Assembly: GCF_029784135.1 (NCBI RefSeq)
Contig: NC_073744.1
Span: 103,771,766-103,835,765 of the forward strand
Direction: 5' to 3'
Origin: Toxorhynchites rutilus septentrionalis
Taxonomy: Eukaryota; Arthropoda; Insecta; Diptera; Culicidae
Length of the DNA stretch: 64,000 nt
Shown: positions 10,389 through 56,312 of the stretch, piece after piece
Layout of the letters: each line of letters starts with the position of its first letter
Position numbering within the stretch: the first letter of the stretch is position 1
Program-made: the position numbers and the translations under genes
Notes under the pieces: model-generated
Databases searched by the model: none
Told to the model about the DNA's origin: nothing
Seen by the model: only the letters and a program-made list of their open reading frames with translations

Positions 10389-10394
10389 AAAAAA

Positions 10395-24567: not shown

Positions 24568-24611
24568 CCAATCGGTATATAAGCGAGCGGCGCTCGGAAA
24601 TCCACTCAGTT
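24568..24611 (+). promoter_or_regulatory. Pol II core promoter inside E3 (CCAAT, TATA, initiator)
   Basis: CCAAT at 24568-24572, TATATAA at 24576-24582 and TCAGTT at 24606-24611. TATA start to initiator A is 32 bases. The same three boxes at the same spacing occur on the minus strand of E5 (TATA 53554-53548, initiator 53524-53519). The arrangement is that of an insect TATA/Inr promoter, as used by histone genes. The downstream sequence is not a recognisable coding region. Confidence 0.6.
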
Positions 24612-24801
24612 CTAATTGAACAGCGATTGGAGCATGTTGTCGCTGTTGCGGTGAAGCTCTTTATTTATCATGAAAGCGCGGATGAACGGTGTAACCAAGA
24701 GCCTGTTTGTGCACCCTAGGCCAGAAGGGAATCTATCAGGAGGAGAGTGATGCCACAAACGGTTCCCTGGGAAGACATCGCTACACACACATACACGCGC
24801 G

Positions 24802-27800: not shown

Positions 27801-30800
27801 CTCAGAGAGTTCATTCCCCTCTAGTTTGCCTTCCAAATTGCCATCGTAAACCACACCTTCTCTCGATTCAATCACACACAAAAAGCATACTTAAGCGATA
27901 TTCTGGTGGTGAGACACATTCATTTTTCGTGAGGACATCGACAAGACAACATCGTTGCCTAACGTGCTGGAGGAGGTGGACGGCGAAGGATCGACACATA
28001 CACGCGCAGAACTCTTTCCGTTAGGATGCCATTCAGCATCGAGAAAGTTCCGGAAAGATCTAATCATTGCTGGAAAATAATCTGCCAGTTCCTCTGGGAA
28101 TTTTCAAAATATATTCATGTGAAAGAGTTTAATTGAATGTTTTCTATCCATGTTACACTGTGACCAAATATGTTTCAATCAAGTGCTATTAACAGGTGGT
28201 TATCGAGTTGGCATTAACCACTGGTGGGCTTCCAGTATCGAGGAAAATGTGGAAATAACTAATCGTTACTGAAAATAATCTGCCAGTTCCTCTGGGAAAT
28301 TTCAAAATATATTCATGTGAAAGAGTTTAATTGAATGTTTTCTATCCATGTAACACTGTGACCAAATATGTTTCAATCAAGTGCTATTAACAGGTGGTTA
28401 TCGAGTTGGCATTAACCACTGGTGGGCTTCCAGTATCGAGGGAAATGTGGAAATATCTAATCGTTACTGAAAATAATCTGCCAGTTCCTCTGGGAAATTT
28501 CAAAATATATTCATGTGAAAGAGTTTAATTGAATGTTTTCTATCCATGTAACACTGTGACCAAATATGTTTCAATCAAGTGCTATTAACAGGTGGTTATC
28601 GAGTTGGCATTAACCACTGGTGGGCTTCCAGTATCGAGGAAAATGTGGAAATATCTAATCGTTACTGAAAATAATCTGCCAGTTCCTTTGGGAATTTTCA
28701 AAATATATTCATGTGAAAGAGTTTAATTGAATGTTTTCTATCCATGTAACACTGTGACCAAATATGTTTCAATCAAGTGCTATTAACAGGTGGTTATCGA
28801 GTTGGCATTAACCACTGGTGGGCTTCCAGTATCGAGGAAAATGTGGAAATATCTAATCGTTACTGAAAATAATCTGCCAGTTCCTTTGGGAATTTTCAAA
28901 ATATATTCATGTGAAAGAGTTTAATTGAATGTTTTCTATCCATGTTACACTGTGACCAAATATGTTTCAATCAAGTGCTATTAACAGGTGGTTATCGAGT
29001 TGGCATTAACCACTGGTGGGCTTCCAGTATCGAGGAAAATGTGGAAATAACTAATCGTTACTGAAAATAATCTGCCAGTTCCTCTGGGAATTTTCAAAAT
29101 ATATTCATGTGAAAGAGTTTAATTGAATGTTTTCTATCCATGTAACACTGTGACCAAATATGTTTCAATCAAGTGCTATTAACAGGTGGTTATCGAGTTG
29201 GCATTAACCACTGGTGGGCTTCCAGTATCGAGGAAAATGTGGAAATATCTAATCGTTACTGAAAATAATCTGCCAGTTCCTTTGGGAATTTTCAAAATAT
29301 ATTCATGTGAATGAATTTAATTGAATGTTTTCTATCCATGTAACACTGTGACCAAATATGTTTCAATCAAGTGCTATTAACAGGTGGTTATCGAGTTGGC
29401 ATTAACCACTGGTGGGCTTCCAGTATCGAGGAAAATGTGGAAATAACTAATCGTTACTAAATTAATCTGCCAGTTCCTCTGGGAATTTTCAAAATATATT
29501 CATGTGAAAGAGTTTAATTGAATGTTTTCTATCCATGTAACACTGTGACCAAATACATTTGGTTTTGTGGTTTTTCAATCAATCGCAATTAACAGGATAG
29601 CTTCAGAAGATTATTCTTCCTCATCAGTAGGATATTTCCGTATCCAATATTGTATGCGCCCGCAATCGATTATTGCTCAGTCGCCGAAAGTTCCGAGCTC
29701 AGAGAGTTCATTCCCCTCTAGTTTGCCTTCCAAATTGCCATCGTAAACCACACCTTCTCTCGATTCAATCACACACAAAAAGCATACTTAAGCGATATTC
29801 TGGTGGTGAGACACATTCATTTTTCGTGAGGACATCGACAAGACAACATCGTTGCCTAACGTGCTGGAGGAGGTGGACGGCGAAGGATCGACACATACAC
29901 GCGCAGAACTCTTTTCGTTAGGATGCCATTCAGCATCGAGAAAGTTCCGGAAAGATCTAATCATTGCTGGAAAATAATCTGCCAGTTCCTTTGGGAATTT
30001 TCAAAATATATTCATGTGAAAGAGTTTAATTGAATGTTTTCTATCCATGTAACACTGTGACCAAATATGTTTCATTCAAGTGCTATTAACAGGTGGTTAT
30101 CGAGTTGGTATTAACCACTGGTGGGCTTCCAGTATCGAGGAAAATGTGGAAATAACTAATCGTTACTGAAAATAATCTGCCAGTTCCTCTGGGAAATTTC
30201 AAAATATATTCATGTGAAAGAGTTTAATTGAATGTTTTCTATCCATGTAACACTGTGACCAAATATGTTTCAATCAAGTGCTATTAACAGGTGGTTATCG
30301 AGTTGGCATTAACCACTGGTGGGCTTCCAGTATCGAGGGAAATGTGGAAATATCTAATCGTTACTGAAAATAATCTGCCAGTTCCTTTGGGAATTTTCAA
30401 AATATATTCATGTGAATGAATTTAATTGAATGTTTTCTATCCATGTAACACTGTGACCAAATATGTTTCAATCAAGTGCTATTAACAGGTGGTTATCGAG
30501 TTGGCATTAACCACTGGTGGGCTTCCAGTATCGAGGAAAATGTGGAAATAACTAATCGTTACTGAAAATAATCTGCCAGTTCCTCTGGGAATTTTCAAAA
30601 TATATTCATGTGAAAGAGTTTAATTGAATGTTTTCTATCCATGTAACACTGTGACCAAATATGTTTCAATCAAGTGCTATTAACAGGTGATTATCGAGTT
30701 GGCATTAACCACTGGTGGGCTTCCAGTATCGAGGAAAATGTGGAAATATCTAATCGTTACTGAAAATAATCTGCCAGTTCCTTTGGGAATTTTCAAAATA

Positions 30801-30856
30801 TATTCATGTGAAAGAGTTTAATTGAATGTTTTCTATCCATGTAACACTGTGACCAA
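24802..30856. repeat. 198-bp satellite array with interspersed ~512-bp inserts
   Basis: The monomer starts at GTGCTATTAACAGGTGG. Starts fall at 24998, 25196, 25394, 26104, 26879, 27077, 27275, 27473, 28183, 28381, 28579, 28777, 28975, 29173, 29371, 30080, 30278, 30476 and 30674, after a first partial one at 24802. Most steps are exactly 198. The steps of about 710 (775 once) contain a longer unit beginning ACATTTGGTTTTG at about 25579, 26289, 27658 and 29555. Identity between monomers is very high, with only a few variants such as CTCTGGG/CTTTGGG and ATATC/ATAAC. The long unit holds a repeated 82-codon frame (25697, 27776, 29673) that I regard as non-coding. Confidence 0.97.
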
Positions 30857-31120
30857 ATACATTTGGTTTTGTGGTTTTTCAATCAATCGCAATCAACAGG
30901 ATAGCTTCTGAAGATTATTCTTCCCCATCAGTAGGATATTTCCTTATCCAATATTGGATGCATAAAACCTTGTGCCTCCAACGTAACGCTCTCGTTTTCG
31001 AAGTTCTCCAAATATTCATTCATTCAGAATGAATTCAGATTCAACTTCATACAAATGATCTCTAAATCAACGATAGTCCTACGTCACCCTTGCGGTTATA
31101 TAGATATAACCCACTTCCTG

Positions 31121-35555: not shown

Positions 35556-36004
35556 GACGTAGGACTACGTCTAACCGGAAGATATAGGGGGTGAAATGGA
35601 AATCTAGGCACTGAACAAGTAGGAAAAAATGCAAGATTTGGAACGCTTATAACTCGAGCATTTCTCAATAGATCGCAAAGGTTTTTGCATCAATTGATAG
35701 GAAATATATCTACGCATCTATCATAACGAATAACATTTCATTTTTCTTGAGATAAATAATTGAATAATTGTGAAATATCAAGCATTGTCAAAATGCACTA
35801 TGTGCCCATTTTTGATTGGTCCATTTTGTGCTCCTGAAATCGTACCGACCAAAACGGGCAACCAGAGCAGCAGCGAAACAGAATGAAGCACGATTGGAAA
35901 GGAAAAAGAAAAAAATGAACGAAACATTGGTCGCAGTCTCACACATGCGTAATTCTCGAGCCAGCCAGTCAGCTTAAAAATCCCCGCTCCGCTGCCGTAA
36001 CGAT
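35556..36004 (-). mobile_element. E4 element fragment (promoter side only)
   Basis: It starts with GACGTAGGACTACGTC and follows the same sequence as E4 at 53899-54347, including CCATTTTTGATTGGTCC (a CCAAT box in reverse). It stops just before the H2A 5' UTR at GCCGTAACGATC. The H2A coding part is missing. The right flank to about 36160 is unassigned. Confidence 0.8.
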
Positions 36005-36663
36005 CCACGGTGCTTCTGACATTCAACCGAGATGGTCATGTTTTTAGCGCCCCTTTGAAAAGAGTAGCAAAAAATAGAAGTTTTCTCCTCACACAACTGG
36101 TTCTATGCTAAAGGAAATTCCTTGAGGCTCTAATCAGTCCTAAATAAAGTTTTTCTCGCAGGTGTACAAGACGAGGACAAGGAGGAGGCCACCGAATAGC
36201 CTAGACGGTTGGTGGCTTTCGATACCGGCAGTTTTCACTGCCCCTAGCGTCGGTCCCTGTTTTTGGCGCGTTTTTTGCAGCTCACTTATATATATCCCAC
36301 ATTATTATTACTGGTTACTTATCTCTGGTGGTGGTTTTTATTTTCAGCTGGTGTTTGATCCTGGACTGCAGAGTGGTGGTGTACCCACACTACCGTTTCT
36401 CCGGTGCGGGGGCGCACCCCCCCAGCAGCAGTACATAGTGTTAGTGATATTTATAACAGTTTTTCTTTAAACCTCATAGACATTATAGTAGTGTTTCATT
36501 GTATTGAAAGTAGTGTTTCTAGTGAAATTTAAAAACTTTTTTGAAACAAGCTCCGAAACTGTTGAGCCTTTTCTTTTTTTTATTCTGCATTAGTGCCATT
36601 TCTAGTGTGTATCTCTACATCAACCTTCCTGGCTGTACCTCCCGGGAATAGCCAGCCTTTACC

Positions 36664-41606: not shown

Positions 41607-41954
41607 CCACTATACGATTATTTGCTATATGTTACCGACTTAATCACATCATACATACTAACACCTAATGCTTGTGAGCTAATATATGTGTTACCAACGT
41701 ATTACATATGTTAGGTCACACACATTTTATTTATCAAAAAAAAAAAATAAATAAATATATAAAATACAAAAACAAAAGACGGGTGGGTAATGTCGGGGAC
41801 ATAACCGGAGTGACGTAGGACTATACAAAGGGGACAGCTTTTGTTAAATATATATTTTAAATATATTGTTTTATTTTCTTCTCCTACGTGAATACCTACC
41901 TATCTACCTTAAAAATGGATTAGTTTACTGTTTACTCTTCATGAATATGTTGAT

Positions 41955-41970
41955 GGTTCTGAAAAGAACC
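41955..41970 (-). promoter_or_regulatory. Histone mRNA 3' stem-loop
   Basis: Minus strand GGTTCTTTTCAGAACC, perfect 6-bp stem and UUUC loop, preceded by ACACCAAA. It lies downstream of the minus-strand H2A of the same element, in the position expected for its mRNA end. Confidence 0.85.
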
Positions 41971-42209
41971 TTTGGTGTTGTGTTTTTGTTATCACTCGAT
42001 ATTCCCATCTTGTTCGGTTAAACCTTCCTGTTTAGCTATTGCGTTTGCCACTCGCCACAGCTTTCACAGTTGGAAAATTTCTTCCCATCCAGCTTGTGAC
42101 ATGTTGTTCAGTAAATTACATTTGATGCGACGTGCCGGAGAAACACTTTGCCACTCACTGAAACTAATTGTTGCCTTGATGAGCGCCGAACCGAAGCTGC
42201 TCTGTTCTT

Positions 42210-42441
42210 GATGCGGGTTTTCTGATTGTCGTGAGCAGCTTTGCAAGCCAACTCGAGCACTCCGACGGCCGAAACTCTATAATAGCTGTTAGGTATACTG
42301 GTGCTCCGGCACCAATCCGTTCGGCCTAGTTACCCTTGCCGAGCAATCAGTGAATGCGACCAACAGGGAACTGGAGACTTGCACGGTTCGAGTGAGACTT
42401 TGCCTTTCCCTTAACTTGTCCTCCTTTGTTACGTCCACGAT
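42210..42441 (-). pseudogene. Histone H2A 5' half (type B) in E2 copy 2
   Basis: Read on the minus strand it is collinear with 55722-55953. It holds the DNA for [11 protein letters not shown], the LLR/GN region, AERIGAGAP and, after a frameshift, ELACKAAHDN-KTRI. It begins just downstream of a reversed TATAAAA box (42511-42517). There is no intact start and there are several stops. The C-terminal third of H2A (after KKTRI) is absent, as in all copies here. Confidence 0.75.
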
Positions 42442-42671
42442 GCCGATGCCGTACAACCACACGGGTTTACGGTTTGAAAGAAAATAAGATATTTTTTTGG
42501 GGTTCGTGTGTTTTATACTTTAGCGGTACACAGGATAGAGACAAATCGGCAGACTCAGCCAGAGGGGCGAGTCCAACGAGACGAACGAATGAGCGTTAAA
42601 AGGGAGCGATGGCAAAAAAATACATTCATTACGATTTGTTCGCTCGTTGGATTCACATGCAGGCTAAAAAG

Positions 42672-42687
42672 GGTCCTTTTCAGGATC
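42672..42687 (+). promoter_or_regulatory. Histone-type 3' stem-loop
   Basis: GGTCCTTTTCAGGATC: all six stem positions pair (one G-U), loop UUUC. It faces away from the H2A of the same element, so it belonged to another histone gene whose coding part is lost. Confidence 0.75.
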
Positions 42688-43464
42688 ACAAAATTATCTT
42701 CAATCTAAAGAGTTTATTGTTTTGTTATCACTCGATATCCCCATCTTGTTCGGCTAAACCTTGCTGTTTAGCGATTGCATTTGCCACTCGCCACAGCTTT
42801 CACAGTTGGAAAATTTCTTCCCATCCAGCTTGTGACATATTTTACAGTAAATTACATTCAATGGCACGTCGCATTACCACCACTCAGTATCGGATTGGAG
42901 GTAATTTTAACCTGTAATTGAACATTTGCGATGACAGTGGTACAGTGTCGACCTTCAATGTGGGGTCATAATTTGGACCCCGAACTCTATGTTTACAAAA
43001 ATGTCCAACTAAATATGTCGCATTACTGGTCCGACCAATTAGCTAAATGTCGAGATAAGTGTAAATTACTGTACTTTCAATCTAGAAGCAATTTAAGAAT
43101 TGGTGAAAATCAATAAGCTCAGAACAACTGCCAAATTCACATACTCATCATATCCTGGCAAACAAATTATAAAAAAATCAATTTGTGTTTTATTATTATT
43201 TTGGATATTGTTTTAGAAAGCATTGAACTGTATTTCCTAAACTCTTTTTTGGAAGGTTTAATGGCCCTGAAAAGCGCCTTGTTTTATGGAATGGTTCAAA
43301 TTTAGAAAACTTAGTACTCGTGGTTTTGAAAAAAAGTCACAGGAGGGTTGTGTCCAAGACACGACCGCGTAGTTGACGTAGGATTCCGTTAGGCTGATTT
43401 TGGATATGTTTGAAGAATTACATTGTTAAACACTTCGAAAATGATTTGGGTCCGTTTTGACTGG

Positions 43465-43680
43465 TTGTTAGGTATTGTTTGTTCACTCCACCAGTGTCCA
43501 TAACCGAGTGATAATGATAGAAGAATGGTGATTAGTCATTAGATGGTGCGTATCACGTACCAAAGCCGCCCTCTGTGGTCCTGGACGAGATGGCTCTTGT
43601 GTTATGTATGGATGAAATAAAGAAAAAAGCTGATCAATGTAATATAACATAATTATCATCATCGAACACAAGTTTTCTCA
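43465..43680 (+). mobile_element. Possible solo LTR (copia-type)
   Basis: It starts TGTTAGGTATTG, contains GAAATAAAG as a polyadenylation-like signal and has a right part ending ATCATCGAACACA. TG...CA ends, size near 210-220 bases and a late AATAAA fit a small LTR. No convincing target duplication was found, so this is a weak call. Confidence 0.3.
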
Positions 43681-43689
43681 CCAGAAAAA

Positions 43690-44240
43690 AAGTGTTACTT
43701 TAGTATAGAGAAAATATATTTGAAATGGAAAACGTAATTTCATCTATAATTTTTTTATTTTCTGAGTGTTTATTCAACCCATTTCCTTTTCGCTTTAAAC
43801 CCAACGGAAAACGATGCTACATCCCTCAAGGTGATTGGGCTAATCGCCTTGAGGTTCAATTGGGGCTAACAGCACCCAATACGATATGTAGAGCATATGC
43901 GAAATCACTTTTTCGAATATTCCTTCATTTTTCCAATTTTGCTCGTCGTATGAACTTTTTTTGGGGGAAAAAAAATCGTTTCACATTTCAAGTCATTTTA
44001 ACACAATAGCTACCATATACAATTTTACGCTTACAGTTGTGCTAAAAGTTTTAGAATACATGATCGGTCATTGATATGAAACTTCACGAAGCAACCAACA
44101 TAAAAGTTTCAAATTTAAATTTTATTTATATTCTATCAAGCATAAGTTCTTTTCAGTTCATTGAAACATCATTCTTCAATCAACCCATCGATAGATTCTT
44201 ATTGGATCGAAAATAACAAAGAAAACACTCGTTCATCACT
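43690..44240. other. Unassigned AT-rich interior of the longer E1 copy
   Basis: No supported coding region was found. There is a local inverted repeat around CAAGGTGATTGGGCTAATCGCCTTG at about 43828-43852. Confidence 0.4.
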
Positions 44241-44784
44241 CCCAACTTATTCGCCAGCACGTATGCAATCAGCAATGCCCACGCTAGTTACAATGAGCAC
44301 TATCCATTTGTGCGCGTAATTAGTTAAACTATCGACCACGAGGGTATTTACATGCTGATTTCTCCCAGACACCTTGGATTTGAAATCTCTGTTAGGGAAT
44401 ACATGTCGGTGGGAAAAAAAGCTCCCCCTACTTTCATGTGTTTGCAATGTCGATTTCACCCAGGCAGCTTGGTTTTGATGTCTCTGTTAGGGAACCGCCA
44501 CATGTGTCGTCAATTTCGACCAATCAGAAGTGGGTATTTCCATTAGGATAGGGGTTGAGATTTTACAACTGTTTATTAGTTAGTTTCATGACATATATTA
44601 TTTTATTCAATGTAAAAAATTGTTATGGAGTGCCGAAATTGATTGACGCAAAAATTTCATCAATCCATCATGCAATGACTGAGCAATAAGCATTTGAAAT
44701 TGGACAATTTTCACGGTGCGCTCGATTTTCAATTTTCAATTTGTACCCCAATATGTTCCCGAAAGACGTAATCCTACGTCAAAA

Positions 44785-45562
44785 CCATTTCGAACGCCCT
44801 CGATGCCGCCTTGTTCTGGATTTGCCACCAAAGCAGTGTGTATAAAGAACAAACTTTTTTCTTCTGCTACCTGATGCCGTTTTGCGATTGCGTTTGCCAC
44901 TCGCCACTCGCTGCAACTGCCTGTTGTCTTGATGTCCACAGAACCGAATGTGTTCTGTTCCGAATGCGGGTTTTCTTATCGTCGCGAGCAGCTTTATCAC
45001 CTAACTCGATCACTTCGGCGGCCGAAACTATATAACGCCGGCTAGGTGGACTGGTGCACTGGTACTAACGCGCTCGGCCTAGCTACCCTTGCGGGGAACT
45101 CCAGATCAACACGGTTCGAGCCGGATTTTGCCTTTCCGTTCACTTTTCCTCCTTTACCATGTCCTGACATGGCTGCTTGGGTTGGTTTGTTGATGTGTTG
45201 TGATGCGAACCGATGTGGTGTACGGTTTGAATGAGAATGATCGTTACGGCAGCGGAGCGGGGATTTTTAAGCTGACTGGCTGGCTCGAGAATTACGCATG
45301 TGTGAGACTGCGACCAATGTTTCGTTCATTTTTTTCTTTTTCCTTTCCAATCGTGGTTCATTCTATTTCGCTGCTGCTCTGGTTGCCCGTTTTGGTCGGT
45401 TCGATTTGAGGAACACAAAATGGACCAATCAAAAATGGGCACATAGTGCGTTTTGACAATGCTTGATATTTCACAATTATTCAATTATTTATCTCAAGAA
45501 AAATGAAATGCTATTCGTTATGATAGATGCGTAGATATATTTCCTATCAATTGATGCAAAAA
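44785..45562 (+). mobile_element. E4 element, copy cut on the right, with H2A pseudogene
   Basis: It begins CCATTTCGAACGCC after the AAAA that ends E1 and is collinear with 48230-49040. It stops at CAATTGATGCAAAAA, where an E2 interior (H2A type B) begins. The right palindromic end is lost, so the junction is a recombination or deletion point. Confidence 0.75.
44961..45170 (-). pseudogene. Histone H2A 5' half (type A)
   Basis: The minus strand starts at 45170 with ATGTCAGGACATGG (M S G H G) and continues [11 protein letters not shown] before a deletion that removes the DNA for GRIHRLLR. The DNA for AERV.T.APVHLAGVI and, in a shifted frame, AAEVIELAGKAARDDKKTRIR follows. The LAGKAARDDKKTRI segment matches H2A LAGNAARDNKKTRI closely. 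It then diverges completely from H2A, so the captured piece ends there. Confidence 0.85.
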
Positions 45563-46572
45563 GCTACCCTTGCTGCGCAATTGGCGGATACACCTACGGC
45601 GAACTGCACACTTGCACGGTTCGAGTGGGACTTTGCCTGTCCCTTAACTTGTCCTCCTTTGTTACGTCCGCGATGCCGATGCCATACAACCACACGGGTT
45701 TACGGTTTGAAAGAAAATAAGATATTTTTTTGGGATCCGCGTGTTTTATACTCTAGCGGTACACACTCACAGGATAGAGACAAATCGGCAGACTCAGCCA
45801 GAGGGGCGAGTCCAACGAGACGAACGAATGAGCGTTAAAAGGGAGCGATGGCAAAAATATACATTCATTACGATTTGTTCGCCCTTTGGATTCACATGCA
45901 GGCTAAAAAAGGGTCCTTTTCAGGATCACAAAATTATCTTCAATCTAAAGAGTTTATTGTTTTGTTATCACTCGATATCCCCATCTTGTTCGGCTAAACC
46001 TTTCTGTTTAGCGATTGCATTTGCCACTCGCCACAGCTTTCACAGTTGGAAAATTTCTTCCCATCCAGCTTTGTGACATGTTGTACAGTAAATTACATTC
46101 AATGCGACGTGCCGAAGCACCACTCAGTGTCGCATTGGAGGCGATTTTAACCTGTAATTGAACATTTGCGATGGCAGTGGTACAGTGTCGACATTCAATG
46201 TGGGGTCATAATTTGGATCTCTATGTTTACAAAAATGTCCAACTAAATAAGTCGCATTACATGTCCGTCCAATTAGCTAAATGTCGAACTAATTGTAAAT
46301 TACTGTACTTTCAATCTGGAAACAATTTAAGAATTGGTGAAAATTGAATAATCTGGAAAGTCCCCAACTCAGACTGCCAAATTCACATACTCATCAGATC
46401 CTGGCAAACAAATTATGAAAAAATCAATTTTTGTTTTATTATTGTTTCGGATAATGTTTTAGAAAGCATTGAACTGTATTTCCTAAACTCTGTTTTGGAA
46501 TGTTTAATGGCCCTGAAAAGCGCCGTGTTTTATGGAATGGTTCCAATTTAGAAAACTTTTACTCGTGGTTTT
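45562..46572 (+). mobile_element. E2 element fragment (right two-thirds)
   Basis: It starts inside the H2A type B coding region (minus strand, about 45562-45675) and is collinear with 42340-43328. It has a reversed TATA box at 45744-45750, a plus-strand histone-type stem-loop at 45912-45927, the ~150-base block and the E2 right end at about 46572. The left end is missing. Confidence 0.75.
45912..45927 (+). promoter_or_regulatory. Histone-type 3' stem-loop
   Basis: GGTCCTTTTCAGGATC, same as at 42672, followed by ACAAAATTATCTTCAATCTAAAGAG in both. Confidence 0.75.
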
Positions 46573-47282
46573 GAAAAAAAAGACGGGTGGGTAATGTCGC
46601 TGACATAACCGGAGTGACGTAGGACAAAGGGGACAGCTTTTGCTAAATATATATTTTAAATATATTGTTTTATTTTCTTCTCCTACGTGAATTCCTACCT
46701 ATCTATCTGAAAAATGGATTAGTTTACTGTTTACTCTTTATGAACATGTTGGGGGTTCTGAAAAGAACCTTTGGTGTTGTGTTTTTGCGTTTTTTTACAA
46801 ACTTGATTCTTGATTTTTTTCTGAAGGCTTTGTACTTATTAAATGTTCAACGTCGGGCATCTTTCGGCGTATACACATATCGTACAATCAAAATGATGGC
46901 TGTGATAGGGAATGCATAGATGGTCATCAGCTCGTTCACTATCATATATTTCACTATTGAGCACATTACCGTACCTTAAACTGTGGTTTCGGAGACGAAT
47001 GAATTGTAAGATTTGTAGTCTCCGCAAACAAAGTAAATAAAAATGAAAAAGAACTGAGATTTTGGAGACGAACTCTACGATCTGTCGAGAAATAAACGAG
47101 CTATAAGCGTTCTGAAAAACCAACAGTAAATACAGGGACGGATGACCTTCGGATTAAAGTCCTTTAAAATAAGAACAGAGCAGCAGGAAATACATAGCTC
47201 ATCGTGTTGCTCCTTAGTTATTTCTCTATGCAATGCAGATATAACGTCAGTCAATTTTCAACATCAGTTATCATCAGTTATC

Positions 47283-47433
47283 TCTATAATCGCTGTTAGG
47301 TATACTGGCACCAATCCGTTCGACTTAGTTACCCTTGCGGAGCAATCAGTGAATGCGACCAACAGGAAACTGGAGACCTGCACGGTTCGAGTGAGACTTT
47401 GCCTTTCCCTTAACATGTCCTCCTTTGTTACGT
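47283..47433 (-). pseudogene. Histone H2A 5' part (type B), partial
   Basis: The minus strand covers the N-terminal KGKA region to the GAP/YL region (GTGCCAGTATACC) and stops there. The ELAG..KKTRI part present in other type B copies is lost. It has stops and frameshifts and is identified mainly through its siblings. Confidence 0.65.
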
Positions 47434-47726
47434 CCACACGTCCACGTTGCTGCTTGTTTTCTTTTTATGATGTGATGCGATGCGATGTTAAACGATGCCG
47501 TACAACCACACTGGTTTACGGTTTGAAAGAAAATGAGATATTTTTTTGGGATCCGCGCGTTTTATACTCTAGCGGTACACGCTCACAGGATAGAGACAAA
47601 TCGGCAGACTCAGCCAGAGGGGCGAGTCCAACGAGACGAACGAATGAGCGTTAAAAGGCAGCGATGGCAAAAAAATACATTCATTACGATTTGTTCGCTC
47701 GTTGGATTCACATGCAGGCTAAAAAG

Positions 47727-47742
47727 GGTCCTTTTCAGGATC
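47727..47742 (+). promoter_or_regulatory. Histone-type 3' stem-loop
   Basis: GGTCCTTTTCAGGATC with a UUUC loop, same context as 42672 and 45912. Confidence 0.75.
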
Positions 47743-48229
47743 AGAAAATTATCTTCAATCTAAAGAGTTTATTTTTTTTGTTATCACTCGATATCCCCTT
47801 CTTGTTCGGCTAAACCTTTCTGTTTAGCGTTCTGTTTAGCGACTTTCAATGTGGGGTCATAATTTGGACCCCGAACTCTATGTTTACAAAAATGTCCAAC
47901 TAAATATGTCGCATCACAGGTCCGTCCAATTAGCTAAATGTCGAGATAAGTGTAAATTGCTGTACTTTCAATCTAGAAGCGATTTAAGAATTGGTGAAAA
48001 TCAATAACCTCAGAACAACTGCCAAATTCACATACTCATCAGATCCTGGCAAACAAATTATGAAAAAATCAATTTGTGTTTTATTATTATTTTGGATATT
48101 ATTTTAGAAAGCATTGAACTGTATTTCGTAAACTCTTTTTTGAAAGGTTTAATGGCCCTGATAAGCGCCTTGTTTTATGGAATGGTTCCAATTTAGAAAA
48201 CTTTGTACACGGGGTTTTGGAAAAAAAAA

Positions 48230-49133
48230 CCATTTCGAACGCCCTCGATGCCGCCTTGTTCTGGATTTGCCACCAAAGCAGATTGTATAAAGAACAAACT
48301 TTTTTCTTCTGCTACCTGATGCCGTTTTGCGATTGCGTTTGCCACTCGCCACTCGCTGCAACTGCCTGTTGTTGTCTTGATGTTCACCGAACCGAATGTG
48401 TTCTGTTCCGAATGCGGGTTTTCTTATCGTCGCGAGCAGCTTTGCCAGCTAACTCGATCACTTCGGCGGCCGAAACTATATAACGCCGGCTAGGTGGACT
48501 GGTGCACTGGTACTAATGCGCTCGGCCTAGCTACCCTTGCGGGGAATTCCAGATCAACACGGTTCGAGCGGGATTTTGCCTTTCCCTTCACTTTTCCTCC
48601 TTTACCATGTCCAGACATGGCTGCTTGGGTTGGTTTGTTGATGTGTTGTGATGCGAACCGATGTGGTGTACGGTTTGAATGAGAATGATCGTTACGGCAG
48701 TGGGGATTTTTAAGCTGACTGGCTGGCTCGAGAATTACGCATGTGTGAGACTGCGGCCAATGTTTCGTTCATTTTTTTTTCTTTTTCCTTCCCAATCGTG
48801 CTTCATTCTATTTCGCTGCTGCTCTGGTTGCCCATTTTGGTCGGTACGATTTGAGGAGCACAAAATGGACCAATCAAAAATGGGCACATAGTGCATTTGG
48901 ACAATGCTTGATATTTCACAATTATTTAATTCTTTATCTCAAGAAAAATGAAATGTTATTCGTTATGATAGATGCGTAGATATATTTCCTATCAATTGAT
49001 GCAAAAACCTTTGCGATCTATTGAGAAATGCTCGAGTTATAAGCGTTCCAAATCTTGCATTTTTTCCTACTTGTTCAGTGCCTAGATTTCCATTTCACCC
49101 CCTATATCTTCCGGTTAGACGTAGTCCTACGTC
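48230..49133 (+). mobile_element. E4 element, full-length copy (904 bp)
   Basis: It runs from CCATTTCGAACGCC after an A-run to GACGTAGTCCTACGTC at 49118-49133 before AAAAA. It contains minus-strand H2A type A. Beyond the H2A promoter is a ~250-base tail (CACAATTATTTAATTC...CAATTGATGCAAAAACC...) shared by all E4 copies and more distantly by E1. It is almost identical in length to the inverted copy at 53899-54802. Confidence 0.8.
48401..48618 (-). pseudogene. Histone H2A 5' half (type A) in full-length E4
   Basis: The minus strand from 48618 reads [20 protein letters not shown], then a deletion of the RIHRLLR segment, then the AERV.T.APVHLAGVI DNA and, in another frame, SAAEVIELAGKAARDDKKTRI. 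A CCAAT box (GGACCAATC on the plus strand at about 48867) lies upstream of the start, consistent with a retained histone promoter. The second half of H2A is absent. The N-terminal codons are intact in all E4 copies except 49302-49520. Confidence 0.87.
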
Positions 49134-49138
49134 AAAAA

Positions 49139-50038
49139 CCATTTCGAACGCCCTCGATGCCGCCTTGTTCTGGATTTGCCACCAAAGCAGTTTGTATAAA
49201 GAACAAACTTTTTTCTTCTGCTACCTGATGCCGTTTTGCGATTGCGTTTGCCACTCGCTGCAACTGCCTGTTGTCTTGATGTCCACCGAACCGAATGTGT
49301 TCTGTTCCGAATGCGGGTTTTTTTTATCGTCGCGAGCAGCTTTACCAGCTAACTCGATCACTTCGGCGGCCGAAACTATATAACGCCGGCTAGGTGGACT
49401 GGTGCACTGGTACTAACGCGCTCGGCCTAGCTACCCTTGCGGGGAACTCCAGATCAACACGGTTCGAGCGGGATTTCGCCTTTCCCTTCACTTTTCCTCC
49501 AATCAAAAATGTCCAGACATGGCTGCTTGGGTTGGTTTGTTGATGTGTTGTGATGCGAACCGATGTGGTGTACGGTTTGAATGAGAATGATCGTTACGGC
49601 AGCGGAGCGAGGATTTTTAAGCTGACTGGCTGGCTCGAGAATTACGCATGTGTGGGACTGCGACCAATGTTTCGTTAATTTTTTTCTTTTTCCTTTCCAA
49701 TCGTGCTTCATTCTATTTCGCTGCTGCTCTGGTTGCCCGTTTTGGTCGGTATGATTTGAGGAGCACAAAATGGACCAATCAAAAATGGGCACATAGTGCA
49801 TTTTGACAATGCTTGATATTTGACAATTATTCAATTATTTATCTCAAGAAAAATTAAATGTTATTCGTTATGATAGATGCGTAGATATATTTACTATCAA
49901 TTGGTGCAAAAACCTTTGCGATCTATTGAGAAATGCTCGAGTTATAAGCATTCCAAATCTTGCATTTTTTCCTACTTGTTCAGTGCCTAGATTTCCATTT
50001 CACCCCCTATATCTTCCGGTTAGACGTAGTCCTACGTC
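49139..50038 (+). mobile_element. E4 element, second full-length copy in tandem
   Basis: It starts five A residues after the previous E4 and ends with GACGTAGTCCTACGTC (50023-50038). Same content as the preceding E4. It is followed by an A-run and the E5 left end. Confidence 0.8.
49302..49520 (-). pseudogene. Histone H2A 5' half (type A), altered tail
   Basis: The minus strand opens ATGTCTGGACAT, then the codons for GKGGKVK are replaced by a sequence reading TTTTTGATTGG. That sequence also occurs at the CCAAT region of this family (AATCAAAAATG), which suggests a local template switch or gene conversion. The rest matches the other type A copies, including LAGKAARDDKKTRI in a shifted frame. 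Confidence 0.8.
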
Positions 50039-50710
50039 AAAAAAACAGGAAGTGGGTTAATTCTATGGTATAACCGCATGGGTGACGTAGGACTATCGTT
50101 GATTTAGAGATCATTTGTTTGAAGTTGAATCTAAATCTATCCTGAATGAATGAATAAATAAATATTTGGGTGGCTTCAAAAACGAGAGCATTACGTTCGA
50201 GGCTCAAGGTTATATGCATCCAATATTGGATACAAAAAACCTTGTTCTGAAGAATAATCTTCAGAAGCTTTCCTGTTAACTGCACTTGATTGACAAACCA
50301 CAAAACCAAATGTATGTGGTCGCAGTATTATATGGATAGAAAAAATTAAAATAAACTCGCTTGAATGTAATTTTCAATTCCATGGGGAACTGGCAGATTA
50401 TTTTTCAGCAACGATCATTTCTTTCCAGGTTTCTTCTCGATAACCAGCAAACGAAAAGAGTTGCGCGCGTGTATGTGTGTGTTTGTGTGGCGGCTGCTTC
50501 AATGTCTTCCCGAGGAACCGTATTTCAATGCTGATTTCGATGCTCTCTTGGTCACCTTTTCTTCTCCTTCTGATCGATCGGCTTTTCTGCGCTCCCTCAC
50601 AGTTAAAACAAACTGATTGCATTTCAGGTCAGGTCAGGCCAGGTAATGAATCCCTCGATCCCTCGCCGTTCAGCTCGTTCTGTAACGATGTTGTCTTGTC
50701 GATGTCCTCA

Positions 50711-50868
50711 GGCGTCGTGCACAAATTACGTAACGCTAAAAATCCGGATCTTGAACCCCCTTTCCCCCCCCCCTTACGTAACGGAATTTCCTATCTCTAA
50801 TAAACAGAAAGTAACGCAACATCTACCCCCTCCCCCCTTATCGCGTTACGTAATTTGTGCACGACGCC
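50711..50868. mobile_element. 158-bp MITE with perfect 26-bp terminal inverted repeats
   Basis: Ends GGCGTCGTGCACAAATTACG at 50711 and its reverse complement to 50868, 26 bases identical. The target duplication TCA is at 50708-50710 and 50869-50871. The interior is C-rich (CCCCCTTTCCCC and CCCCCTCCCCCC). The 3-bp TNA duplication fits a Harbinger-type mover, but the family is not identified. It interrupts a segment of E5 that is continuous elsewhere (GACATCGACAAGACAACATCG in the satellite long unit). Confidence 0.9.
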
Positions 50869-51394
50869 TCACGAAAAATGAATGGGTTTCACCACCAGAA
50901 TATCATTTAAGTATGCTTTTCGTGCGTGAATGAATCGAGAGAAGGTGTGGTTTACGATGGCAATTTGGAAGGCAAACTAGAGGAGAATGAACTCTCTGAG
51001 TATGAAAATTTCGGCGACTGAGCAATAATCGATTGAAAATTATATAATTTTCGCGATACGAAACATTTTCCGTTGCGCGCACATACAATATTGAATACGA
51101 AAATATCCTACTGATGGGAAAGAATAATCTTCCGAAGCTTTCCAGCTAATTACACTTGATTGAAAAATTACGAAATCAAATGTATTTGGTCGCTGTGTTA
51201 TATGGTTAGAAAACATTAAAATAAACTCTTTCGCATGAATGTATTTTTCAATTCCTAGGGAACTGGCAGATTGTTTTTCAGCAACGATTAGATCTTTCCG
51301 GAATTTTCTCGATGCTGTATGGCATCCAAACGAAAATTCTCGTTTCAGTTTGGCCTGCAAAAAACTTTTCTGAACTCTAATCCATCAAATTTGG

Positions 51395-51410
51395 AGCCCT
51401 GAAAAGGGCC
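51395..51410 (-). promoter_or_regulatory. Histone mRNA 3' stem-loop of the left H3 pseudogene
   Basis: Minus strand GGCCCTTTTCAGGGCT: six pairs (one G-U) and a UUUC loop, followed by CCAAA. It lies about 25 bases after the H3 C-terminal codons, the normal spacing for histone mRNA ends. Confidence 0.9.
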
Positions 51411-51435
51411 GTTGATTATATGCTAAGCTAATATA

Positions 51436-51785
51436 GCACCCTCTCCTTGGATTCGACGGGCCAGCTGAATGTCCTTGGGCATGATGTGACGCGTTTTGCG
51501 TGGATAGCACACAAATTTGTATCTTCGAATAAGCCTCCTGCAGCGTCATAACTGCGGAACTTTGGGAGCGCAAGTCGGTTTTGAAGTCCTGAGCAATTTC
51601 ACGAACCAAATGCTGCAAAGGTAGCTTGCGGATCAGCAATTCGGTCGACTTCCGATAGCGATGAATTTCACGCAAAGTTCCCGGTCGATAGCGATGTGGC
51701 TTCCTCACCTATCCTGCGGCTGGTGCGCTTATCCGAGCTGCTTTCGTGTGCCTTAACACCGAAAGACTAACGAGCTGTCTGCTTG
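51436..51785 (-). pseudogene. Histone H3 pseudogene, left arm
   Basis: The minus strand reads TKQTAR, a gap, then [40 protein letters not shown] and LQEA. These are hallmark segments of histone H3 from the N-terminal tail to the histone fold. A ~20-base deletion removes SEAYLVGL. The following DNA still encodes [14 protein letters not shown] and the [15 protein letters not shown] region in another frame. VA after RPGT is also missing. A stem-loop lies just after the C-terminus. H3 is the core histone carrying the K4/K9/K27 marks. This copy cannot make a functional protein. Confidence 0.92.
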
Positions 51786-52049
51786 GTCCCAAACAAACGA
51801 GTCGTCACGGTGCAAGAGTAGAGTAAGAAATGAACGAAAGCAAGGGAAGTGTCATTTTATAAAACATAAAAGTATCGAATGTAAACCCCACCCTCTTTAT
51901 TATATAAGCTTACTGTATACTTACGAATATAATAAGGGTGGGGTTTAGATTCTATACTTTTATGGTTTATAAAATGACGCTTCCTTTGCTTTCGTTCATT
52001 TCTTACTCTACTCTCGCACCGTGAGGACTCGAGCTCGTTAGTCTTTCGC

Positions 52050-52402
52050 AGACAGCTCGTTAGTCTTTCGGTGGTAAGGCACATGAAAGCAGCTCGGATA
52101 AGCACACCAGCAGCAGGATAGGTGAAGAAGCCACATCGCTATCGACCGGGAACTTTGCGTGAAATTCGTCGCTATCAGAAGTCGACTGAATTGGTGATCT
52201 GCAGCTACCTTTGCAGCATTTGGATCGTGGAATTGCTCAGGACTTCAAAACCGACTTGCGCTTCCAAAGTTCCGCAGTTATGACGCTGCAGGAGGCTTAT
52301 TCGAAGATACCAATTTGTGTGTTATCCATGCAAAACGCGTCACATCATGCCCAAGGACATCCAGCTGGCCCATCGTATCCGAGGAGAGCGTGCTATATTA
52401 GC
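52050..52402 (+). pseudogene. Histone H3 pseudogene, right arm
   Basis: The plus strand holds QTAR (with a stop at K9), then KPHRYRPGT (same VA deletion), [23 protein letters not shown] and LQEA. It has the same ~20-base deletion as the left arm, then DNA for [11 protein letters not shown] and MPKDIQLA...RGERA. The two arms share both deletions, so the inverted duplication happened after H3 was already damaged. A stem-loop follows at 52419-52434. A few sites differ from the left arm (LRF here, LRS there). Confidence 0.9.
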
Positions 52403-52418
52403 TTAGCATATAATCAAC

Positions 52419-52434
52419 GGCCCTTTTCAGGGCT
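52419..52434 (+). promoter_or_regulatory. Histone mRNA 3' stem-loop of the right H3 pseudogene
   Basis: GGCCCTTTTCAGGGCT, identical to the left-arm stem-loop, 17 bases after the H3 end. Confidence 0.9.
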
Positions 52435-52485
52435 CCCAATTTGACGGATTAGAGTTCAGAAAAGTTTTTTACAGGCCGAACTGAA

Positions 52486-53100
52486 AGGAGCATTTAGCGA
52501 AAATCGTGGTGTCGATGATAATTCGATACCGATAGGTGCCATGGATATGGATTTCATAATGAAGAATATGAAATATATGACATGATGTAGTGAATATATC
52601 CGAAGAAATCACTTTGGTGAAACTGCATTATAAAATTATTTGTGTACGAATGCCGCAATCGATAGTCGACTCTAATTTGCGCTGGGTAATTTCCTCGGAG
52701 GACTCAATTCCTCCTTTGAGCATTAAGAAACTCTTTCTGGTAAAACGAAGTGGTATGAATCACATTATTTGAATGATAGAATGAAGAAGTTTTCTGCCAA
52801 TTTCCTTCAACCTCCAAACATATCTTTCTCCCGTTTGTCGTTTTCGTGTTCGCTAATCTTTTCTCACAACACCCATTTCTCGTTTGAGAAATTGTTGAGT
52901 AAACATTGTTTGCCAGTGCGCGTAGAGCGGGAATTCCTAAAGATTTATTGCACCTCTAATAAATTGCCGAAAGACGTGGTCTTAGGTTGATCGCACTTGA
53001 TTGAAAAAATCCAAAACGAAATGTATTTGGTCGCAGCATTATATGAGTAGAAAGCAAATAATCGCTCGAAAATGACTTGATTTTAGCGATGATGTTTCAC
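52486..53100. other. Unassigned part of E5
   Basis: No coding region or repeat supported beyond short AT-rich tracts. Confidence 0.4.
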
Positions 53101-53518
53101 GTTTTTCATGTTACGCATCCAATATTGGATACGAAAGTTTTCCACTGATGGGAAAAAAATATTCAGAAGCTTTCCTATTAATTGCGATTGATTGAAAAAT
53201 CACAAAACCAAATGTATTTGGTTGCAGTGTTATATGGATAGAAAACATTAAAATAAACTCTTTCGCATGAATGTATTTTTCAATTCCCAGGGGAACTGGC
53301 AGATTATTTTTCAGCAACGAGAATTCCGCGCGTGTATATGTGTGTGTGGCGGCCGATGTTTCAAGCGGAACCGTGGCATCACTCTCCTCCTGATGGATTC
53401 CCTTTTGGCCTTAGGTGCACATACAGGCTCTTGGTGACACCGTTCTTTAGCGCTTTCATGATAAACGAAAATAGCTTCACAACACAGCGACAACATGCTC
53501 CAATCGCTGTTCAATCAT

Positions 53519-53577
53519 AACTGAGGGGGTTTACGAGCAGCGCTCGCTTATATACCGATTGGTGATTTCAATAGCCT
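53519..53577 (-). promoter_or_regulatory. Pol II core promoter inside E5
   Basis: On the minus strand: CCAAT just upstream, TATATAA at 53554-53548 and initiator TCAGTT at 53524-53519. Spacing is 32 bases, as in E3 at 24576-24611. The downstream region is similar in both but is not a recognised gene. Confidence 0.6.
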
Positions 53578-53898
53578 GTTTTGAAAGCAATTTTAAGATT
53601 ATTGAAACAAGTTTTTGGATGAAAAAGTAACAAGTATATGACGCGTAGACCTTTTATCTTTCGAATGAAGTGTTTATCATACCATTTCGTTCAGTTATTT
53701 AATAGCTATTTACGCTCAAAATCTCGGTCTCCGGCTTTCATTTTCGAAACTTTGGTTTTACACCCCGGTATAAAAATGAAAGACGTAGTCCTACGTCAAA
53801 AAATTTGTTAGATATGTAGTTGGATATCACAAATCAAACACACCCACACACACACACTTAGACACCCACTCACAACAAAATACACAGATTTTGATTTT

Positions 53899-54802
53899 GA
53901 CGTAGGACTACGTCTAACCGGAAGATATAGGGGGTGAAATGGAAATCTAGGCACTGAACAAGTAGGAAAAAATGCAAGATTTGGAACGCTTATAACTCGA
54001 GCATTTCTCAATAGATCGCAAAGGTTTTTGCATCAATTGATAGGAAATATATCTACGCATCTATCATAATGAATAACATTTCATTTTTCTTGAGATAAAT
54101 AATTGAATAATTGTGAAATATCAAGCATTGTCAAAATGCACTATGTGCCCATTTTTGATTGGTCCATTTTGTGCTCCTGAAATCGTACCGACCAAAACGG
54201 GCAACCAGAGCAGCAGCGAAATAGAATGAAGCACGATTGGAAAGGAAAAAGAAAAAAATGAACGAAACATTGGTCGCAGTTTCACACATGCGTAATTCTC
54301 GAGCCAGCCAGTCAGCTTAAAAATCCCCGCTCCGCTGCCGTAACGATCATTCTCATTCAAACCGTACACCACATCGGTTCGCATCACAACACATCAACAA
54401 ACCAACCCAAGCAGCCATGTCTGGACATGGTAAAGGAGGAAAAGTGAAGGGAAAGGCAAAATCTCGCTCGAACCGTGTTGATCTGGAGTTCCCCGCAAGG
54501 GTAGCTAGGACGAGCGCGTTAGTACCAGTGCACCAGTCCACCTAGCCGGCGTTATATAGTTTCGGCCGCCGAAGTGATCGAGTTAGCTGGCAAAGCTGCT
54601 CGCGACGATAAGAAAACCCGCATTCGGAACAGAACACATTCGGTTCGGTGGACATCAAGATAACAGGCAGTTGCAGCGAGTGGCGAGTGGCAAACGCAAT
54701 CGCAAAATGGCATCAGGTAGCAGAAGAAAAAAGTTTGTTCTTTATACAAACTGCTTTGGTGGCAAATCCAGAACAAGGCAGCATCGAGGGCGTTCGAAAT
54801 GG
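53899..54802 (-). mobile_element. E4 element, full-length inverted copy (904 bp)
   Basis: It starts GACGTAGGACTACGTC and ends GGCGTTCGAAATGG before a T-run, the exact inverse of 48230-49133. H2A is therefore on the plus strand here. The element separates a short CA-rich spacer (53800-53898) from an inverted E2. Confidence 0.82.
54417..54635 (+). pseudogene. Histone H2A 5' half (type A), plus-strand copy
   Basis: ATG at 54417 opens [20 protein letters not shown], matching the H2A N-terminal tail except H for R at position 4. The frame then reads VDLEFPARVAR, because a ~20-base deletion removes GRIHRLLR. Downstream DNA still encodes APVHLAGVI and, in another frame, SAAEVIELAGKAARDDKKTRIR. Upstream lies a 5' UTR-like stretch and CCAAT boxes (TGATTGG, in reverse, at about 54157). 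The C-terminal third is absent. If transcribed, it could yield only the tail and a short novel peptide. Confidence 0.9.
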
Positions 54803-55469
54803 TTTTTTTCAAAACCACGAGTACTAAGTTTTCTAAATTGGAATCATTCCATAAAACAAGGCGCTTTTCAGGGCCATTAAACCTTCCAAAAAAGAATTTA
54901 GGAAATACAGTTCAATGCTTTCTAAAACATTATCCAAAATAATAATAAAACACAAATTGATTTTTTCATAATTTGTTTGCCATGATCTGATGAGTATGTG
55001 AATATGGCAGTTGGTCTGAGCTTATTGATAGTTGGGGACTTTCCTGATTATTCAATTTTCACCAATTCTTAAATTGTTTCCAGATTGAAAGTACAGTAAT
55101 TTACAATTAGTTCGACATTTAGCTAATTGGACGGACATGTAATGCGATTTATTTAGTTGGACATTTTTGTAAACATAGAGATCCAAATTATGACCCCATA
55201 TTGAAAGTCGACACTGTACCACTGTCATCGCAAATGTTCAATTACAGGTTAAAATCGCCTCCAATGCAACACTGAGTGGCACTTCGGCACGTCACATTGA
55301 ATGTAATTTACTGTACAACATGTCACAAAGCTGGATGGGAAGAAATTTTCCAACTGTGAAAGCTGTGGCGAGAGGCAACAAATCGCTAAACAGGAAGGTT
55401 TAGCCGAACAAAATGGGGATATCGAGTGATAACAAAACAATAAACTCTTTAGATTGAAGATAATTTTGT

Positions 55470-55485
55470 GATCCTGAAAAGGACC
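55470..55485 (-). promoter_or_regulatory. Histone-type 3' stem-loop
   Basis: Minus strand GGTCCTTTTCAGGATC with a UUUC loop; counterpart of 42672. Confidence 0.75.
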
Positions 55486-55646
55486 CTTTTTTAGCCTGCA
55501 TGTGAATAAAACGAGCGAACAAATCGTAATGAATGTATTTTTTTGCCATCGCTCCCTTTTAACGCTCATTCGTTCGTCTCGTTGGACTCGCCCCTCTGGC
55601 TGAGTCTGCCGATTTGTCTCTATCCTGTGAGTGTGTACCGCTAGAG

Positions 55647-55653
55647 TATAAAA
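55647..55653 (+). promoter_or_regulatory. TATA box upstream of H2A type B
   Basis: TATAAAA about 75 bases before the degenerate H2A start. It is conserved in position in the inverted siblings (42511-42517, 45744-45750, 47560-47566). Confidence 0.6.
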
Positions 55654-55721
55654 CACGCGGACCCCAAAAAATATCTTATTTTCTTTCAAACCGTAAACCC
55701 GTGTGGTTGTACGGCATCGGC

Positions 55722-55953
55722 ATCGTGGACGTAACAAAGGAGAACAAGTTAAGGGAAAGGCAAAGTCTCACTCAAACCGTGCAAGTCTCCAGTTCCCTGT
55801 TGGCCGCATTCACTGATTGCTCCGCAAGGGTAACTAGGCCGAACGGATTGGTGCCGGAGCACCAGCATACCTAACAGCGATTATAGAGTTTCGGCCGTCG
55901 GAGTGCTCGAGTTGGCTTGCAAAGCTGCTCACGACAATTAGAAAACCCGCATC
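55722..55953 (+). pseudogene. Histone H2A 5' two-thirds (type B), best preserved copy
   Basis: After a decayed start, the plus-strand DNA encodes [22 protein letters not shown], a stop in place of R, LLRKGN, a stop in place of Y, AERIGAGAPAYL and TAIIEF. After a one-base shift it reads VLELACKAAHDN, a stop, and KTRI. Compared with H2A ([46 protein letters not shown]) it is collinear over about 90 residues. This copy retains the RIHRLLR segment that type A has lost, so types A and B are separate derivatives of an H2A gene. Confidence 0.9.
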
Positions 55954-56192
55954 AAGAACAGAGCAGCTTCGGTTCGGCGCTCATCAAGGCAACAATTAGT
56001 TTCAGTGAGTGGCAAAGTGTTTCTCCGGCACGTCGCATTAAATGTAATTTACTGAACAACATGTCACAAGCTGGATGGGAAGAAATTTTCCAACTGTGAA
56101 AGCTGTGGCGAGTGGCAAACGCAATAGCTAAACAGGAAGGTTTAACCGAACAAGATGGGAATATCGAGTGATAACAAAAACACAACACCAAA

Positions 56193-56208
56193 GGTTCTTT
56201 TCAGAACC
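56193..56208 (+). promoter_or_regulatory. Histone mRNA 3' stem-loop
   Basis: GGTTCTTTTCAGAACC preceded by ACACCAAA and followed by ATCAACA. It is close to the full consensus and lies downstream of the H2A type B in the same orientation. Confidence 0.88.
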
Positions 56209-56312
56209 ATCAACATATTCATAAAGAGTAAACAGTAAACTGATCCATTTTTCAGGTAGATAGGTAGGTATTCACGTAGGAGAAGAAAATAAAACAATAT
56301 ATTTAAAATATA

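Follow-up and report, generated by a model that had tools for sequence, protein, structure and literature searches.

The stretch of 64,000 nucleotides of Toxorhynchites rutilus septentrionalis analysed here (contig C1:103771766-103835765; the window, to which plain positions refer) contains ten pieces of the histone H2A gene, an inverted pair of H3 pseudogenes and histone mRNA 3′ stem-loops, set among elements with palindromic ends (Table 1). The H2A pieces are of two types, A and B, which lie in the 5′ half (E4) and the 3′ half (E2), respectively, of an element that recurs in the window in whole and partial copies. We conclude that the window very probably holds nested rolling-circle transposons of the non-autonomous Helentron type (HINEs), in which one or more histone pieces were taken up and then amplified in T-runs. 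Genome searches were carried out over the assembly of 902.6 Mb (514 contigs).

A preliminary description had placed H2A at ten positions of the window, and all ten were recovered by tblastn (best E-value per place 9e-25 to 6e-5). The N-terminal string of 16 residues said to be readable in most type A copies is exact in three of five (starts 9869, 48618 and 54417), carries one change at 45170 and is broken after MSGH at 49520. Seven of the ten pieces reach codon 78 and leave H2A at one point, the KKTRI junction being exact at 42201, 44954, 48402, 49301, 54617 and 55946 and diverged at ∼8425, whereas those at 9700, 45562 and 47283 stop sooner; the view that all copies end after KKTRI at a single common boundary thus applies to most of them and not to all. 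Every one of the ten pieces is damaged, and the H2A protein that they would encode is not functional. In addition to what had been described, tblastn revealed H3 pseudogenes at 51435-51787 (-) and 52086-52394 (+), and the Rfam family Histone3 was matched above its gathering cut-off at four places, with 18 occurrences of the stem-loop motif CTTTTCAGRRYC (one mismatch permitted) versus 3.1 expected.

Helentrons and HINEs are characterized by palindromic subterminal repeats, a 3′ stem-loop, insertion at T-rich sites without change of the target site and, in some, tandem repeats, according to PMC4067079. In the window, at least four Ts precede the palindromic 5′ end in 9 of 9 cases, and the subterminal repeat CCTACGTCA (TAGTCCTACGTCA or a near variant), a predicted hairpin and a T-run are present at 7 of 7 3′ ends, the hairpin being weak in element S2. 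The palindromic end motif (up to three mismatches, both strands) gives 20 matches at 11 places versus 0.62 expected, and one end of copies I and II has a single mismatch in the palindromic repeat. The 5′ GACGTAGGACTACGTC and the 3′ TAGTCCTACGTCA have up to 12 bp in common, in line with the 11 bp or more shared within a Helentron family. The 3′-terminal hairpin sequence is also found in 16 of 20 copies fetched from elsewhere in the genome, and the sites are T-rich or TT, with a variable number of Ts, both in the window and at the 5′ (19/19) and 3′ (16/16) ends read in the fetched copies; a target-site duplication is lacking at the two empty sites described below. Tandem repeats are represented by a 198-bp satellite array within element S1.

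Two empty sites illustrate the mode of insertion. Element S1 splits a long interspersed nuclear element (LINE) at a T5 run, and an intact relative of this LINE lies at ∼17270 with no duplication besides the Ts; the H2A-carrying copy L028 lies in a T-run of another element copy, the uninterrupted form of which is present in the window at ∼48135, and only Ts differ. Canonical Helitrons begin with 5′ TC and end with 3′ CTRR and are not known to have palindromic subterminal repeats. The ends of the present elements do not conform to those motifs, as they read 5′ GACG... and 3′ ...CACCCGTC or ...CTTCCTG and lie in T-run sites. In viral contigs, the 23-base end pattern had no match and the bare 16-base palindrome had one, which we take as chance, and no matching phage record was found.

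E4 and E2, treated in the preliminary description as separate elements, proved to be halves of one element that measures 2,349-2,788 bp in 16 copies with both ends, in all of which E4 runs into E2. These copies (13 fetched, L047, L048 and copy II of the window) were chosen for having both ends; pattern searches found the A junction and the stem-loops SL2 and SL3 in 16 of 16, and SL1 in 2 of 16. Twenty stretches were fetched at E4-matched places, of which L027 and L028 overlap and L024 misses its 5′ end. The 19 stretches that reach the 5′ end all contain it, preceded by at least four Ts in 18 and by two Ts in L014. The 200-bp flanks (19 5′ and 14 3′ flanks compared) are unrelated except in the pair L012/L013. 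Copy II is 99.9% identical to L010 elsewhere on contig C1. A subfamily of 2.55 kb with 99.8-100% identity (L010-L015 and 46582-49133) was found only on contig C1 (90-161 Mb) and on the unplaced contig C214, where the flanks of the copy equal those of L012. For the compared copies of contigs C2 and C3 the identity is ∼98%, and for the older L047 and L048 it is 90%. The subfamily could reflect a recent burst, or a low-recombination or sex-linked region.

A genome search with 48230-49133, which had been suggested for detecting dispersed copies, did detect them, as 39 of 42 rows cover nearly the full 904 bases at 94-100% identity (40 places scored of 1,963 first-look candidates, the first-look counts being loose). 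These 39 rows are distributed over contigs C1, C2, C3 and C214 on both strands, and one is the window's own. The family is therefore not found only beside a histone cluster, the finding that would have spoken against dispersal, because the window lies on contig C1 and the listed H2A genes of 100% identity lie on contigs C2 and C3 and on unplaced contigs. Exact matches to the 25-base 5′ end number 7,882 genome-wide (3,904 and 3,978 per strand), and the junction between H2A and the element, with at most one mismatch, is present 11,900 times (5,801 and 6,099 per strand), a count of junctions and not of elements, as one element may hold both an A and a B junction; the reversed controls gave 0 in both cases. 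The first 100 junctions listed comprise 53 of type A and 47 of type B.

Linkage between the two was followed in the first 100 listed 5′ ends, all within the first 18.6 Mb of contig C1, so that the resulting proportion describes one chromosome end and not the genome. For 57 of the 100, a junction on that strand follows downstream at a distance of no more than 3.5 kb (three controls: 3, 1 and 1 per 100). The distance from the 5′ end to the junction is 711-717 bp in 21 of 39 and 902-955 bp in 8 of 39 cases of type A, and 1,990-2,100 bp in 20 of 34 cases of type B. Conversely, the exact 5′ end lies upstream of 73 of the 94 junctions listed in the same 18.6 Mb. The expectation that copies with the same ends each carry H2A is thus borne out for the 57, while for the other 43 the pattern finds no junction, which in part goes against it; these 43 may be without H2A, may be shortened or may have an altered junction.

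The search with the H2A protein gave 59 rows at 100% over 124 residues (150 scored of 20,768 loose candidates), which are located on contig C2 at ∼101.6-102.7 Mb, on contig C3 at ∼233.55-233.68 Mb and on unplaced contigs. Five further scored matches are full-length with 92-98% identity, and the remaining 86 are partial or damaged, mostly with in-frame stops and mostly on contigs C1-C3. The surroundings of 3 of these 86 were read; L047 and L048 hold the element, and L049 is without it around the H2A match. The five full-length, stop-free frames (C2:140524913, C1:97613140, C3:100789994, C3:186153582 and C1:130833722) are perhaps variant H2A genes.

Alignment to host H2A and its flanks, as had been advised, yielded the capture breakpoints. 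The tandem histone unit of contig C3 is the best match of the host loci compared and extends past the codons, which identifies this unit type as the donor. On the whole, the earlier claim that H2A was captured and then amplified is supported. When L018 was aligned with 39.6 kb of the C3 histone array, three blocks were obtained: L018 1485-1588 corresponds to C3 unit 7495-7596, the H2B 3′ untranslated region (UTR) with its stem-loop (86%); 1598-1688 to 8039-8143, the H2B 5′ side (83%); and 1712-2090 to 14552-14909, the H2A promoter and 5′ codons (77%). The blocks stand in donor order, the H2B codons between the first two are gone, and the captured part of H2A consists of the promoter and codons 1-78. 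SL2 of the window likewise shows homology to the 3′ end of H2B in this unit. The B promoter region is 72-85% identical to C3 H2A versus 35-44% to two C2 H2A genes. H2B and H2A are 6.7 kb apart in the C3 unit, which measures ∼24.2 kb (L042, L043, L050 and L051), versus 258 bp in the C2 unit L040, and are adjacent in the element, which may therefore have kept an older compact arrangement or lost the spacer. An old 5′ end of the family lies beside H2B in both C3 units read (76-80% over 271-301 bp; the preceding T-run was read in one), which shows that the donor array is open to insertion of these elements. Insertions of this kind may have enabled the capture.

Taken together, one family very probably acquired a piece of the divergent H2B/H2A pair from a chromosome-3-type histone unit, keeping the H2B 3′ end, H2B 5′-side sequence and the H2A promoter with codons 1-78, and losing the H2B coding sequence. 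The H2A part was then probably duplicated internally into types A and B, and the element amplified to thousands of copies, singly or head-to-tail, in T-runs, presumably through rolling-circle replication for which a Helentron supplied the Rep/helicase in trans. A second family would have taken up H3 as an inverted pair. In element S2, two H3 pseudogenes with stem-loops stand head to head (for the arms, see Table 1); the pseudogenes are 76-77% identical to H3 of the C3 unit. These H3 pieces are dispersed too, since all 40 places scored of 2,935 first-look candidates match the arm at near full length with 96-100% identity on contigs C1-C3 (one is the window's own), and a second inverted arm lies close by at at least 5 of the 40.

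Two readings would dispense with a Helentron as the carrier. The palindrome at one end and the shorter inverted copy at the other could be the terminal inverted repeats (TIRs) of miniature inverted-repeat transposable elements (MITEs), moved by a cut-and-paste transposase. The ends are, however, asymmetric, the 3′ repeat being subterminal and followed by a hairpin; neither empty site contains a duplication besides Ts; and the elements are strung head-to-tail with T-run joints. We have therefore rejected a MITE or other TIR transposon as highly improbable. The H2A pieces could also be orphons that were moved by ordinary duplication and came to lie near Helentrons by chance. A Helentron 5′ end within the C3 histone unit does bring elements and histone genes together, and the 5′ ends without a junction by pattern (43/100) are in favour of this view, but the same internal junction recurs 11,900 times, its spacing to the 5′ end is frequently fixed (21 of 39 at 711-717 bp for type A), and copies that are 98-100% identical have unrelated flanks. 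The junction counts and the spacing refute the orphon reading, to which we give hardly any credence.

If the pieces were thus carried by Helentrons, types A and B could still go back to two separate captures of H2A, each by an element of its own, with a later joining of the two elements. A and B differ by ∼18-30% in aligned stretches, the region upstream of A resembles the C3 H2A promoter less than that of B does (61-63% versus 72-85%), and the decayed A_10389 has only four derived sites in common with B and three in conflict. Nevertheless, comparison with three host H2A genes places a stop at the Tyr-39 codon, a 1-nt deletion and further derived sites in both types, which continue into identical foreign sequence after codon 78, and A_49133 and A_53899 share seven derived sites with two B copies with none conflicting. 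Because the stop, the deletion and the junction are common to A and B, a single capture followed by internal duplication is favoured, and two captures are very unlikely.

Several observations besides A_10389 weigh against the Helentron account as a whole. No Rep/helicase locus could be tied to the element ends, the ends of such loci not having been read; on the supporting side, 132 of 150 scored loci of the genome match Helitron_like_N, and open frames of 1,564-1,674 codons are present at four of them (C2:6603193, C2:26079453, C2:320571306 and C3:178037638). The 5′ ends without a junction by pattern have been mentioned, and for 4 of the 20 fetched copies the sequence read does not contain a 3′ end. 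As regards the donor, both H2B pieces are short. Poorer matches to the 3′ UTR block are present in the H4 and H1 3′ regions (76-81%), and a motif that recurs at other places of the C3 unit makes up the second half of the H2B 5′ block; the assignment of these blocks therefore depends mainly on their order and best score. For the sequence after KKTRI, and for a large portion of the element towards its 3′ end, the histone units compared offer no convincing match. Finally, the resident 5′ end does not face H2B/H2A but the opposite way, with the captured block upstream of it and in inverted orientation to it. With this orientation, simple end-bypass from the resident copy does not explain the capture, for which composite transposition or recombination would be needed.

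Table 1. Features of the window, with positions counted from its first nucleotide
Feature	Position	Strand	Remarks
H2A-carrying Helentron-type element, copy I	7350..10388	-	palindromic 5′ end at 10373-10388, hairpin of the 3′ end at ∼7350-7400
H2A piece type A in copy I	9715..9869	-	stops short of KKTRI
H2A piece type B in copy I	8416..8530	-	
Element C1, shorter relative of element C2	6730-7343		
Element S1, satellite-bearing Helentron-type within LINE	24326..31120	+	paralogous empty site ∼17270; no histone match by tblastn
5′ part of H2A element through H2A(A) promoter	35556..36005	+	cut off ahead of H2A codons
3′ half (E2)	41778..43334	-	H2A(B) 42201-42441; 3′ hairpin end at 41778
Element C2, related Helentron-type	43342..44780	-	subterminal repeat GACGTAGGATTACGTC; no histone match by tblastn
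Fused fragment	44785..46573	-	E2 5′ part (H2A(B) 45562-45675) and distal E4 (H2A(A) 44954-45170), fusion point 45562
Complete 2.55-kb element, copy II	46582..49133	-	H2A(A) 48402-48618; H2A(B) 47283-47441
5′ half (E4) alone	49139..50038	-	H2A(A) 49301-49520
Element S2, second Helentron-type	50046..53797	-	bears H3 inverted pair
Inverted H3 pseudogene pair	51334..52495	.	573-bp arms, 91% identical; upstream region and 3′ stem-loop included
Copy III of H2A element, 3′ end missing	53899..56312	+	H2A(A) 54417-54624; H2A(B) 55727-55962
Histone mRNA 3′ stem-loop SL3	41931..41975 (-), 7504-7548, 46730-46774 (-), 56188-56232 (+)		RF00032 above gathering score at these four places
SL2, remains of H2B 3′ end	42667..42713 (+); equivalents 45907 (+), 55444 (-)		reverse to H2A(B); below gathering score

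From 50038 down to 41778, complete and partial elements follow one another head-to-tail, with T-runs at the joints; neighbouring rolling-circle insertions are among the subjects discussed in PMC4067079. Copy I and its neighbour, element C1, lie in the apparent poly(A) tail of a retrocopy that is itself inside a LINE, and a 12-bp duplication, AATGCTGCACAT, flanks that retrocopy at 6227-6238 and 10393-10404. The probable retrocopy (6239-6728) has AATAAA and poly(A) within this duplication. A probable later insertion of a tRNA-derived short interspersed nuclear element occupies 8975-9128 of copy I between repeated AAATTACATTT, judged by eye; ARAGORN reported no tRNA there. The 198-bp satellite of S1 forms several blocks at 24802-30961 in the middle of the element, with related stretches in S2 and near 56313-56540. 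A LINE at 36006-41777, with long open frames at 36970-38058 and 39501-41606, abuts the truncated element at 36005, and by eye no matching flank duplication was seen. The second of these frames (39501-41603) has 95% identity to a protein of T. rutilus septentrionalis. Beside LINE fragments, 18042-18218 on the minus strand matches Rfam R2_retro_el (42.5 bits). An exact inverted repeat of 129 bp (58405-58533 and 63508-63636) surrounds an open frame of 1,022 codons (59671-62739) that appears BEL-like by eye.

The elements hold an H2B/H2A promoter with a TATA-like box and, 0.56-0.8 kb downstream, SL3, which raises the possibility that histone control parts and not protein were what the element selected. 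Such parts would provide dividing germ cells with a transcript of the element that is not spliced, is timed to replication and ends in a stem-loop, at the moment at which rolling-circle replication is advantageous. On this view, the histone captures in Culex and Toxorhynchites, as well as those of H2A and H3 within the latter, would have been convergent. The control parts do look intact in young copies. Diversity was compared along 8 of the 16 full-length copies. No clear sign of selection on coding was observed in these eight: diversity is 1.3% in H2A-A, slightly below its neighbours (1.7% and 3.2%), and 6.3% in H2A-B versus 3.1% and 8.8% in its neighbours, and the first 80 nt of H2A-A have 2, 2 and 4 variable sites at codon positions 1, 2 and 3, respectively. 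Nor was selection on stem-loops or promoter supported in these copies, which are too young for the test; the value for SL3 (5.1%) is intermediate to those of the adjoining segments (8.8% and 3.6%), that for the B promoter is 3.1%, and that for the H2B 5′ block is 0.9%, which is low but based on few comparisons. Because promoter and stem-loop display no special conservation, a role as control parts is possible, and we consider it rather unlikely.

The preliminary description knew of no mosquito element of this kind, but histone capture by a Culex Helentron has already been published: Helentron-Cq-32A of Culex quinquefasciatus has eight copies with histone fragments (Thomas, Vadnagara and Pritham 2014, PMC4067079). 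As described in that paper, Helentron-Cq-32A and HINE-Cq-32A.1 resemble the Toxorhynchites elements in being mosquito Helentrons with palindromic subterminal repeats, a 3′ stem-loop and T-run insertion, in the tandem repeats of the non-autonomous HINE-Cq-32A.1, and in two decayed histone fragments with 83-84% identity to putative parental genes. This comparison is with the published description. The Cq-32A fragments are named there as H4 superfamily (smart00428) and H15, whereas the Toxorhynchites elements contain the 5′ half of H2A twice, H2B/H2A flanking sequence, stem-loops and a separate inverted pair of H3. Further differences are 11,900 junctions versus eight copies, the identification of one donor unit type, and near-identical recent copies. 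According to PMC4067079, the Drosophila elements DINE-1/INE-1 and the element HINE-Mo from the mite Metaseiulus are also non-autonomous with subterminal repeats, a 3′ stem-loop and a TT or T-rich target, and DINE-1 is similar in its high copy number; the DINE-1 repeats, however, are not palindromic, and no protein-gene fragments were found there for the mite families. The gene-capturing Helitrons of maize and bats are comparable as rolling-circle elements that amplified captured host gene fragments to thousands, but canonical Helitrons insert between A and T (PMC4067079). Among open-licence PMC papers, judged by title and the opening of the abstract, no report of histone-carrying elements in Toxorhynchites was found. 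Thus, the kind of element is known; what is new, as far as this literature search goes, is its scale, the histone pieces involved, the tracing of the donor and the occurrence in a second species.

A second mosquito and other histone pieces are thereby added to a capture that PMC4067079 reports from one species only, and the question arises of whether histone control regions are a favoured cargo. Such repeats could also be misannotated as histone genes. For the elements themselves, a rolling-circle element has multiplied one traceable gene capture until a single insect genome contains 11,900 of its junctions, and since the donor unit, the breakpoints and the element remnant in the donor array can all be read, the steps of gene capture by Helentrons become testable.

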